Shown piece by piece: positions 22,038 to 34,211 of a stretch of 64,000 nucleotides of DNA. The translations under genes were made by a program, and so were the position numbers. The notes under the pieces were generated by a model. It was not told where the DNA came from. It was given only the letters and a program-made list of their open reading frames with translations, and searched no databases. Each line of letters starts with the position of its first letter. Within the stretch, counting starts at the first letter, position 1. This DNA is from Eublepharis macularius. Taxonomy: Eukaryota > Chordata > Lepidosauria > Squamata > Eublepharidae. The stretch lies in NCBI RefSeq assembly GCF_028583425.1, contig NC_072796.1, positions 142,981,464-143,045,463 on the forward strand, given 5' to 3'.

Positions 22038-25000
22038 TCAAGGCTGTGCTCCGGCAGTAGCAGGGACTGGCGAGCCCAGAGCGTTTGGAGAGGAGATGAC
22101 GGGCGAGGCGGCCAAACTGCCGATGGGCTGAGAGGCAGCCATGGAGGCAATCCCTGGGCACGCGGGGAAGAAGGAGAGAGCCAGGATGAGCCAGGATGGT
22201 GAAGGCGAGGCAGCCCTCCCTCCACGTCAATGCAGAACCCGTGAAGCTCCAGGCCTGCCTGGGCAAGCACCAGGGCTGCTCTGGGTCTGAAAACCCACCT
22301 GCCAACATGCTGGAGGAGCTGACAGGGGTGTTAGCGGATGAAATCCCAGTGGAGCCCAACCTGGCTGGATCTTTCACTATTGGATCTGCAAGGGAGGAGA
22401 ACATCAGAAAAGCCCCGCGGCCCCACACATCAGTCAACTGAAGGGCCCAGAGAGAAGCGTGGGGGGGGGCTCCCCTTCTGCCTGCCCCAGCAGCACGCAG
22501 GAGACAAAAGGCTCTCTCATTTGGGACTCAGCTAACAAGTTGGGCCGCAGCTGCACAGAGAGCCACCGCAGGCTCTACATAGGTGGCGGTGGGGGGGGGG
22601 CAGCCAAGGGCCAGTTGCAGCTGGGCCCCCAGAGGCCAGGGTGGGGGGGCTGAGGAAGTCATCTGGCCAAAGCAGAGGTGCAACCCTTTGATCAGCAGAG
22701 CAGAGAGGCTCCAGGAGAACTTGGGCCTCTGGTACGCACATGGCCCAGCAGCCAGAGCCAGCAAGGCAGCTGCCCTGCAAGGGGCTCCAGGAGACCAGCT
22801 GCTCAGTGGCTCCGCTCCACTATTCCTCTCTTCACAGAGCCCTGAGATATCAGCCGCACCCGGGCAGACCCAGAGCACTTGCTCTCAAGACCAACCTGCT
22901 GCCCAAAGTGCAAGGCAGCCGAGAGAAGCACAACTCAGACCCTGTATGCGCGCTGGGGATTCTACAGGCCCATATGAACCAGTGACTGGCAGGCTGGCTT
23001 GGTCTAGACCACAGAGGAGAACAGCAAGGGGGAAGAGTCAGAGAGGACCACGTACAGAAGTAGGGGTGCTCCATGGCCTCACGGGCTGTGAGCCGCGTCT
23101 GGTGGTCGTAGCGCAACAGCTTGTCCAGGAAGTCCAAGGCCTCCGTGCTGACCAGGTGCTGGTTCTCGCTGTGCACGAAGCGCTCCCATCGCTTGCGCGA
23201 GTGTCTGCACAAGAAAACAAAGAGGCGGGCACTGGAGGCTCGTGCTGCTCCCAGGCCCCCTCCTTTCTCCACCCCAGAAGGCGCCATGCAGAAGCTGACC
23301 ACGCTGGGCTTCCAGGCAGGAGGTCCGGGAGGCCGCGACCTCCCTCCAAGGAGCAACTGGCCAAAAGGCGCAGCAGCTGCGGCCACCCAGTCCCTCACGA
23401 CTGAGGTTAAGCAGCAGCAACAGGGCAGCCCGGGCGGGGCTCTCACCTGCCGAGGATGTCGTTGAAGCGGGGGTCCAGCTCGATGTTGTACTTGTCGATG
23501 TAATCGTAGAGGTCCTCTGTGCCCAGCACCTTGGCAATCCGCACCAGCTGGGGAGGGACAGAGCCAGTGAAAGTGCCCCTCTTGGGTGGGGAAAGAGGGG
23601 CAGCTGGCTGGGGAAGCAGGAGTGGGGAAGGCAGAACACTGCCCCGCGGCCCAGGCAAGGCCAAGAGCCACCCAAAGGGATGCAGGAACAGCTTCCTCCA
23701 GAAAGGGAAAGCGCAGAGGAGGACGAAGGCATTTAAGCAACGTCTGGGCAGTGGAGGGAAAGAAAACAGGCTGCGGAGGAGGAAGGCCAAGGGGTTTTCG
23801 ACTCCCCTTCCAAAGCAGCCAAGAGCAACAATATCGAGGGCTGTGACCCTTGCAAGAAAAACTGCGGGGACCGGAGACGATGGCTGGCCGGCCGGCTCAC
23901 CTGGTCGTAGTTGTCATGGCCGTGGAAGAAGGGCTCCTTGCGGAAGATCATACTGGCCAGCATGCAGCCCAGGCTCCACATGTCCAGGCTGTAGTCATAC
24001 ATCTGCAGGAGAGGGGAGAGGCACACACGCAGCTGTGCGGTACGGAAGCCGCAGGATGGGCTGGTGAAGAGCTCAAAGAGCCCAAAGCAGCAGCCTCAGC
24101 CCCACCCACCTCTCCTGTCCTCAGGCATCCGAGTCTCCCTCCACCAGCTTTGGGGTAGGAGCCTCTCCGCTTGCCTGGCCAGAAGCCCCCTACCACGCTG
24201 CTCTCTCCACCAGCTGCCAGCCCTCAGCCATCCCAGCCCCCCCCCCCAGTGGAACAGATTTTAATTTGCACGTCGCCCAGAGAAACCCTCCCGCAGCCTT
24301 TCCACAGGGCCCCCACCACCACCCCCATCCTGGAAGCGTCATTTCTGGGCAGAAAGGGTCCCTCCGTGCAGAGTCAAGCGGCACACTGGCTTAGGGCAGG
24401 ACGTGTTTCAGGGTCCGGCAGCAGGTCTCCCAGGGGGTTCTGCACAGGTTTCCCCAGCCTAGGAGGCCCACTGTGGGATCGCACACTACAACTCCGCCTC
24501 CTTCACTGCCATGGAAATGCAAGCGCATCCATCCAAGGGGCCGGGCCGGAGGGGTGGCTGTAGTTACCTGGTAGTCCACAAGAAGCTCCGGCCCTTTGAA
24601 GTACCGCGAGGCCACCCGCACGTTGTACTCTTGACCAGGGTGGTAGAACTCAGCCAGGCCCCAGTCGATCAGACGCAGCTGCAGCAAGAAGGGAGGGGGG
24701 GGAGAGACAGACCACCTCTAAGCACCAAAGGAAGCCTTCTGGAAAGAATGCGATGGGGGACCACCCCCCCATCCCCACTCCAGCAGGCAGTACAGACTGG
24801 CTGATCTTAGCGCGCCCAGGGAGCTGGGAACCACTGGTCCAAGACTGGACACTCCTGAAAACACATTCAAGGGGTGTGTGGAGCTCCCTACAAAAAAAAG
24901 GGTGGGGTGGGGTGGGCTTGACAGCCTGGCTCACAAGTCAGCTACAAGTCGGCAGGCACGCTCTGAGAGCAGCTTCCTATGACAGGCCAGAAGCGTAAGC

Positions 25001-34000: not shown

Positions 34001-34211
34001 GAGAAGCTGGAACTTCCCTTAGCAACTGGTTATCCCTCTCCCAGGAGCCCACCTCACATGCTGAAGAGCACCAACTCCCCATCCCACGGCAGAGCCCCCA
34101 AGGATCGTACCCCCACTCCACAACATGCGACTCATAGTCCCAATACTCGCGGGGTCTCTGGGTGTTCACATCCGCGTAGACCCTTGCTCGACTTGGCACT
34201 GGGCTCGACAT
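22038..34211 (-). CDS. Casein kinase 2 catalytic subunit alpha; CSNK2A1-like, probable third CK2 alpha paralog
   Basis: Coding exons, in order: 34211-34111, 32207-32096, 29780-29679, 28357-28307, 27391-27332, 26574-26491, 24678-24568, 24002-23901, 23547-23447, 23204-23056, 22385-22299, 22153-22038. All phases fit and give 391 codons, the length of human CSNK2A1. The protein is a constitutively active Ser/Thr kinase for acidic sites, acting in cytosol and nucleus, alone or with CK2 beta. Visible elements: glycine loop GRGKYS (about 46-51), Lys68 in VVVKILK, basic cluster KKKK 74-77, HRDVKPHN with Asp156, DWG at 175-177, GPELLVDYQ, and a Ser/Thr/Pro/Ala-rich tail from about 326. By memory of human CSNK2A1 the core (1-325) differs at only about ten positions, such as A98L, T129S, Y131F, I152V and P295T. 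The tail differs at roughly 25 of 66. It is not a retrocopy, since introns are kept. Bordering DGAT1 suggests a paralog of CSNK2A1. Confidence 0.95.
26330..26490 (+). repeat. SINE 3' part ending at a CK2 alpha splice donor
   Basis: The SINE body (ctgtattgtggggatgacaa, then ctctgagtgtggcctccatc) ends in a GTT/ATT tail. The tail stops exactly where the CK2 alpha exon 26491-26574 begins. On the gene's strand the intron therefore opens with gtaataataataataacaac, which is SINE tail. Confidence 0.7.
26795..27095 (-). repeat. Full-length tRNA-derived SINE with target-site duplication
   Basis: The 9-base direct repeat cttgctgta flanks it at 26786-26794 and 27096-27104. In + orientation it runs from ggtaaaggtaaaggtggtcc through ttgccatggccttccccagt to the reversed B box (ggatcgaactcaggtcgtga) and ctgcgccacggggct. 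It is inserted in the CK2 alpha intron between exons 27332-27391 and 26491-26574. Confidence 0.9.
29045..29135 (+). repeat. CR1-type LINE 3' tail
   Basis: It contains ggttggactagatggtcctt and cccttccaactctatg, the typical CR1 3' end, within a CK2 alpha intron. Confidence 0.65.
31620..31850 (-). repeat. Old SINE, MIR/CORE-like
   Basis: It reads aaagtgctttacaaacatca, ccctgtaaggcaggccagca, cttgcccaaagtcacttagt and gatttgaacc. This is the reversed arrangement of an old tRNA-derived SINE. It lies within the CK2 alpha intron between exons 32096-32207 and 29679-29780. Confidence 0.65.
33186..33439 (-). repeat. tRNA-derived SINE with (AAC)n head
   Basis: Reverse copy of the 14387 family: aacaacaacaac, tatactgcccttcaggatga, ctgacccaaggtcacccagc, reversed B box (gaaccaaaccct) and A box. 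Confidence 0.9.

Follow-up and report, generated by a model that had tools for sequence, protein, structure and literature searches.

A third vertebrate CK2 alpha gene beside DGAT1 in the leopard gecko: a probable ohnolog of CSNK2A1, apparently lost in mammals

We analysed a stretch of 64,000 nucleotides, hereafter called the window, from the genome of the leopard gecko Eublepharis macularius (NC_072796.1, positions 142,981,464 to 143,045,463 of the forward strand; C7:142981464-143045463 in our contig numbering). This window contains an intact gene for a catalytic subunit of the much-studied housekeeping protein kinase CK2 (casein kinase II). The gene follows DGAT1 in the direction of transcription and has the same orientation. 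We conclude that it is very probably a third vertebrate CK2 catalytic subunit gene, in addition to CSNK2A1 and CSNK2A2, and more precisely an ohnolog of CSNK2A1 of the type left by the early whole-genome doublings (2R), whose mammalian copy has apparently been lost.

The gene lies on the minus strand and is composed of 12 coding exons, its start codon being at 34211 and its stop codon ending at 22038. Its coding sequence of 1176 nucleotides (391 codons plus the stop) is free of internal stops, and all 11 introns are bounded by GT..AG. Sequentially, from the N- to the C-terminus, the exons are exon 1 (34111..34211, 101 nucleotides), exon 2 (32096..32207, 112 nucleotides, with the glycine-rich loop and Lys68), exon 3 (29679..29780, 102 nucleotides, with the basic cluster KKKKIKRE), exon 4 (28307..28357, 51 nucleotides), exon 5 (27332..27391, 60 nucleotides), exon 6 (26491..26574, 84 nucleotides, with the catalytic HRD loop), exon 7 (24568..24678, 111 nucleotides, with the DWG motif and the activation segment), exon 8 (23901..24002, 102 nucleotides), exon 9 (23447..23547, 101 nucleotides), exon 10 (23056..23204, 149 nucleotides, where the kinase domain ends), exon 11 (22299..22385, 87 nucleotides, encoding the first half of the C-terminal tail with Thr344-Pro) and exon 12 (22038..22153, 116 nucleotides, encoding the second half of the tail and the stop codon).

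Searching the whole genome (2.24 Gb in 72 contigs) with human CSNK2A1 gave 82 matches, from 106 scored candidates out of 226. All 27 matches with at least 58% identity fall in three multi-exon CK2 alpha loci, the other 55 reaching at most 47%. These loci are (i) the CSNK2A1 locus (C5:169577614-169601197, minus strand, 10 matches), (ii) the window gene (C7, minus strand, 8 matches) and (iii) the CSNK2A2 locus (C16:12354909-12387606, 9 matches), whose spliced protein is CSNK2A2. Once spliced, the C5 gene encodes a protein that matches human CSNK2A1 at all 325 core positions and at 56 of 66 positions of the tail. The window protein shares 315 of 325 core residues (97%) with human CSNK2A1, and likewise with gecko CSNK2A1, and its tail is much more diverged, with 41 of 66 positions identical to the gecko protein and 35 of 66 to the human one; against gecko CSNK2A2, 279 of 325 core residues are identical. 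Exon lengths and phases are the same in the C5 and C7 genes, and 66 of their 105 fourfold sites differ, yet only 10 of 325 core residues have changed, which indicates an old pair of genes under strong constraint. The sequence-only reading had described a complete 391-codon gene in 12 coding exons downstream of DGAT1, with the core and exon phases of CSNK2A1 and a diverged tail; the spliced exons, the DGAT1 match and the comparison with the C5 gene agree with this description, and the near-invariance of CSNK2A1 that it had mentioned holds for this genome.

A protein search was used to place the gene among its relatives. Among the best 120 of 5316 matches, in which motifs were read, two kinds of sequences can be distinguished: type 1, which is CSNK2A1 (NTHRP, TLTD and SPEALD, usually ending in QQ), and type 3, which includes the window protein (NTQRP, TLSD and STEALD or SSEALD, usually ending in QP). 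Rows for the tree were picked by hand from 183 proteins and assigned to a type by these motifs before tree building. In the resulting 62-row tree, the 32 type-3 rows, including the window protein, form one clade with support 100/98, and this support was unchanged when the gecko C5 and C16 proteins were added (64 rows). The clade contains four sharks, paddlefish, bowfin, teleosts, salamander, caecilian, squamates, turtles, crocodilians and birds, and its internal branching roughly follows the species tree. Because sharks and ray-finned fishes sit inside it, the split between types 1 and 3 is, on the protein tree, older than the living jawed vertebrates. Four species have a protein of each type on contigs that differ in length, namely Morus bassanus (P0050 and P0160, contigs of 170.2 and 42.6 Mb), Lepidochelys kempii (P0096 and P0152, 271.6 and 41.3 Mb), Scyliorhinus torazame (P0009 and P0175, 328.1 and 282.1 Mb) and Chiloscyllium plagiosum (P0100 and P0176, 124.1 and 64.5 Mb). 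Two teleost subclades were also observed within type 3 (P0008, P0052 and P0021, 100/97; P0014, P0016 and P0111, 100/90), the pattern that retention of both copies after the fish-specific doubling would produce. The jawless rows do not clearly date the duplication relative to lamprey and hagfish; the CK2 alpha-like protein P0090 of Petromyzon marinus lies on a long branch and has Ser129 as in type 3, and His18 and Pro295 as in type 1.

Distribution of the two types was further considered by searching with the tails only. The type-3 tail gave 40 matches among 221 candidates, from squamates, birds, turtles, crocodilians, ray-finned fishes, salamander and caecilian, with no mammal and no frog among them, and the type-1 tail gave 64 matches among 215 candidates, many of them from mammals. 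Mammalian rows with readable motifs among the best 120 of the 5316 full-length matches are all of type 1.

The genomic neighbourhoods of the C5 and C7 genes are paired. A SCRT1 query had two strong matches, one 106 kb from the window gene (C7:143121646, 91%) and one 150 kb from CSNK2A1 (C5:169751138, 86%), and a third, weak one on C4 (47%); both CK2 genes and both SCRT genes are on the minus strand. The SCRT gene of the window gene is thus the better SCRT1 match, and not the SCRT2 neighbour expected of CSNK2A1. Genes of the SLC52A family are found on C7 at two loci within 143223145-143252341 (plus strand, 0.21 Mb from the window gene) and on C5 at 169817891-169827037 (minus strand, 0.22 Mb from CSNK2A1), so that the order CK2 alpha, SCRT, SLC52A occurs twice. 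The two C7 loci (143223145-143230498 and 143249842-143252341) are adjacent SLC52A2-like riboflavin transporter loci, one of them with a stop in the matched stretch. Beyond these close neighbours, pieces of the NDRG family lie on C7, C5, C12, C19 and C16, those on C16 being 0.09 Mb from the CSNK2A2 locus, with one more on C10; among MMP14-type loci, the four best fall on C12, C5, C7 and C16. The C10 piece (17312833-17313165) is a lone NDRG1-like stretch that covers residues 290-392 and contains one stop; it may be a retrocopy.

In human, DGAT1, SCRT1 and SLC52A2 are located at 8q24.3, SCRT2 and SLC52A3 at 20p13 and CSNK2A2 at 16q21; no CK2 alpha member is known on human 8q. A passage of a review places CSNK2A1 at 20p13 and CSNK2A2 at 16p21 (PMC10741536), and human MMP14, MMP15, MMP16 and MMP24 are described, in a passage of another source, as lying in paralogous regions of 14q, 16q, 8q and 20q (PMC1867822). 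With the neighbours known from human 8q24.3, the window gene would fill the vacant 8q24.3 position of a four-way paralogon. Gene models from other species concern the same neighbourhoods: in the pigeon model P0124, DGAT1 exons run into type-3 exons (MBOAT and Pkinase domains), which shows that the DGAT1 neighbourhood is not peculiar to the leopard gecko, and in the sheep model P0069 a bHLH protein, which we take to be TCF15, runs into CSNK2A1.

Several observations weigh against the interpretation of the window gene as a 2R-type ohnolog lost in mammals. In the 62-row tree, type 1 does not form a single clade, its chimaera and shark rows grouping with type 3 (83/83); such a clade is not rejected (p-AU, the p value of the approximately unbiased test, 0.28), and it appears, with a support of just 29, when the long Petromyzon row is left out of a quick tree. 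The SLC52A strand is opposite between C7 and C5, HSF1, a neighbour of DGAT1 in human, is 0.3 Mb away in the gecko, and NDRG pieces are also present on C19 and C10. The NDRG and MMP genes of C5 and C7 stand 12 to 39 Mb away from the CK2 genes and are therefore evidence of shared chromosomes, not of close linkage. Finally, the loss of the type-3 gene in mammals is likely, and perhaps extends to frogs, as an argument from absence in a protein database clustered at 90%, in which one member is displayed per cluster, and the type-3 tail search missed shark and several teleost type-3 rows found by the full-length search.

Among the other explanations, an ancient duplicate produced by a local event or a chance translocation, and not by the whole-genome doublings, would account for the distant NDRG and MMP genes and for the jawless rows, where the single Petromyzon protein with Ser129 on its long branch gives no clear timing. 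We nevertheless consider it unlikely: each of the two genes has SCRT and SLC52A copies in matching order no more than 0.25 Mb away, NDRG and MMP14-type paralogs occupy a matching set of contigs, and the human MMP14-type genes are distributed over the four regions cited above. A younger duplicate arisen within reptiles, segmental or retroposed, would agree with the best full-length vertebrate matches (among the best 120 of 5316) being sauropsid proteins; it is highly improbable given the 11 introns at CSNK2A1 positions and the shark, paddlefish, bowfin, teleost and amphibian rows that share the clade at 100/98. That CSNK2A1 itself was relocated beside DGAT1 and evolved fast in this lineage, as the 97% identical core might suggest, is hardly tenable, since C5 carries a CSNK2A1 whose core equals the human one and a grouping of the window row with squamate CSNK2A1 (type 1) is rejected (p-AU 1.17e-05), so that the tree does not make it a CSNK2A1 ortholog. 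A retrocopy resembling CSNK2A3 is excluded by the 11 introns inside the coding part, and CSNK2A2 identity by the core comparison (279 of 325) and the tail length.

We therefore retain the third gene as an ohnolog of CSNK2A1. The sequence-only reading had regarded it as the DGAT1-side copy paired with CSNK2A1, and this view is supported by the separate C5 locus close to one SCRT and one SLC52A gene, by the SCRT and SLC52A genes beside both copies and by the type-3 clade with its sharks and ray-finned fishes; the opposite outcome that it had envisaged, a moved and fast-evolving CSNK2A1, came out negative. In the scenario that we propose, an early-vertebrate doubling of a chromosome segment would have given CSNK2A1 and the third gene together, and the latter would have remained near DGAT1 and SCRT1, being retained in sharks, ray-finned fishes, salamander, caecilian and sauropsids and apparently lost in mammals, and perhaps in frogs.

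The ten core changes relative to CSNK2A1 are at human positions 3, 13, 18, 96, 98, 129, 131, 152, 295 and 311. None of them affects the CK2-type HRD and DWG motifs, Lys68 or the basic cluster. Because the catalytic and basic-cluster residues are spared, the third protein would be expected to be constitutively active as a Ser/Thr kinase and to bind CK2 beta as CK2 alpha does. The tail is where the two types differ. In human CK2 alpha, Thr344, Thr360, Ser362 and Ser370 are described as Cdk1/cyclin B sites and Ser347 as an O-GlcNAc site, in a passage of one source (PMC9608649), and passages of two sources report that the tail binds Pin1 (PMC9608649; PMC12281484). Over the 32 type-3 and 25 type-1 rows, Thr344-Pro is conserved in 30 of 32 type-3 rows (one Met-Pro, one gap), Ser370-Pro in 31 (one gap) and Ser or Thr at position 347 in 31 (one gap). 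Position 362 is Gln in all 31 readable type-3 rows, versus Ser or Thr in 25 of 25 type-1 rows (followed by Pro in 21). Thr360-Pro is absent from the type-3 rows (0/32) and present in 8 of 25 type-1 rows, gecko CSNK2A1 also being devoid of it; since type 1 mostly lacks this site, only the loss at 362 separates the types. A Ser-Pro near 375 (SPxxSSP) is found in 24 of the 32 type-3 rows, and 16 of the 32 have GSPVP or ASPVP near 381; both are absent from type 1 (0/25 each). The window protein follows this pattern, with Thr344-Pro, Ser347 and Ser370-Pro retained, Gln362, no Thr360-Pro, and Ser375-Pro and Ser381-Pro gained. In some bird type-3 proteins, namely P0038 (Opisthocomus), P0039 (Guaruba) and P0132 (from a record named Aves, n=62), the tail has changed strongly, which would fit a relaxation of tail constraint in parts of birds.

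With such tail changes, proline-directed kinases and Pin1 should control the third protein in the cell cycle differently from CK2 alpha, and on these residues we infer a CK2 subunit that is ordinary except for a shifted mitotic switch. More broadly, and tentatively, most jawed vertebrates outside mammals may run three CK2 catalytic subunits, the third being a natural tail variant that is insensitive to the mitotic switch in so far as it acts through Ser362, and that was lost in mammals; we hold this wider proposal with somewhat less than even confidence. If it is true, the mouse and human picture of vertebrate CK2 is short of one subunit, and csnk2a1 knock-outs in fish or chick may be masked by the third gene. 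With two of the four human CK2 alpha Cdk1 sites kept and the other two absent, the window gene is also a natural experiment on the CK2 alpha tail.

With respect to the known members of the family, the window gene resembles CSNK2A1 (human 20p13, gecko C5) in its 391 residues, its long Ser/Pro-rich tail with Thr344-Pro, Ser370-Pro and Ser347, its 12 coding exons of equal lengths and phases and its core (315 of 325), but it differs from CSNK2A1 by the DGAT1-side locus, the ten core changes, Gln362 and the extra Ser375-Pro and Ser381-Pro. CSNK2A2 (CK2 alpha prime) has the kinase family in common with it, and its C16 locus belongs to the set with NDRG and MMP14-type paralogs, but CSNK2A2 has no long tail, a separate locus and a core identical at only 279 of 325 positions. 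Human CSNK2A3, an intronless CSNK2A1 retrocopy on chromosome 11, shares the CK2 alpha name and is not the window gene. In databases, the window gene and its orthologs are found under the names "casein kinase II subunit alpha-like", "CSK21" and Zgc:86598: many sauropsid "alpha-like" proteins sit in the type-3 clade, and the Zgc:86598 proteins of Hucho hucho (P0128 and P0129) are among the type-3 tail matches. In the zebrafish, passages of two papers list zgc:86598 among the proteins unique to poor-quality eggs (PMC5690628) and among genes with strong expression in a particular class of olfactory neurons (PMC5809090); in neither passage is it described as a third ohnolog of CK2 alpha. If the zebrafish gene is the Hucho gene of that name, as we assume from the name, the fish type-3 copy is expressed. 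A literature search for a third or duplicated vertebrate CK2 alpha gene found no account, most subscription journals being outside its coverage, and a passage of a 2023 review recognises two CK2 catalytic isoforms, alpha and alpha prime (PMC10741536). The existence of the gene is thus already recorded in databases, and its identity as the DGAT1-side ohnolog was not found described. An ancient, intact third gene in birds, reptiles and fishes provides a new baseline for gene-loss studies and for zebrafish or chicken knock-outs.

Other features of the window concern the surroundings of the gene. The DGAT1 coding exons that were found, located with a human DGAT1 query, lie upstream on the same strand (52001..62677, minus strand), the CK2 start codon being 17.8 kb downstream of the last of them. 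Between DGAT1 and the CK2 exons, a CpG island (47001..48000, minus strand, GC 0.72-0.86, observed/expected CpG 0.59-0.91) probably contains the promoter and a non-coding first exon of the CK2 gene; the N-terminal extension of the Rhineura isoform X1 (P0003) matches this island weakly, in low-complexity sequence, which is a hint at most. At the other end, an AATAAA at 21723..21728 (minus strand), 310 nucleotides past the stop, is a candidate polyadenylation signal identified from sequence only. A search of the 64-kb window for stretches of HSF1, SCRT1 and TCF15 was negative at E 0.1. The segment 8571-8930 (plus strand) encodes an F5/8 type C / NedA-like galactose-binding domain (E 2e-17) and resembles what we take to be a fucolectin (F-type lectin). 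Pieces of reverse transcriptase, presumably from long interspersed nuclear elements (LINEs), were identified at 3787-4302 (minus strand, below the Pfam cut-off), 12988-13662 (plus strand) and 20097-20507 (minus strand).

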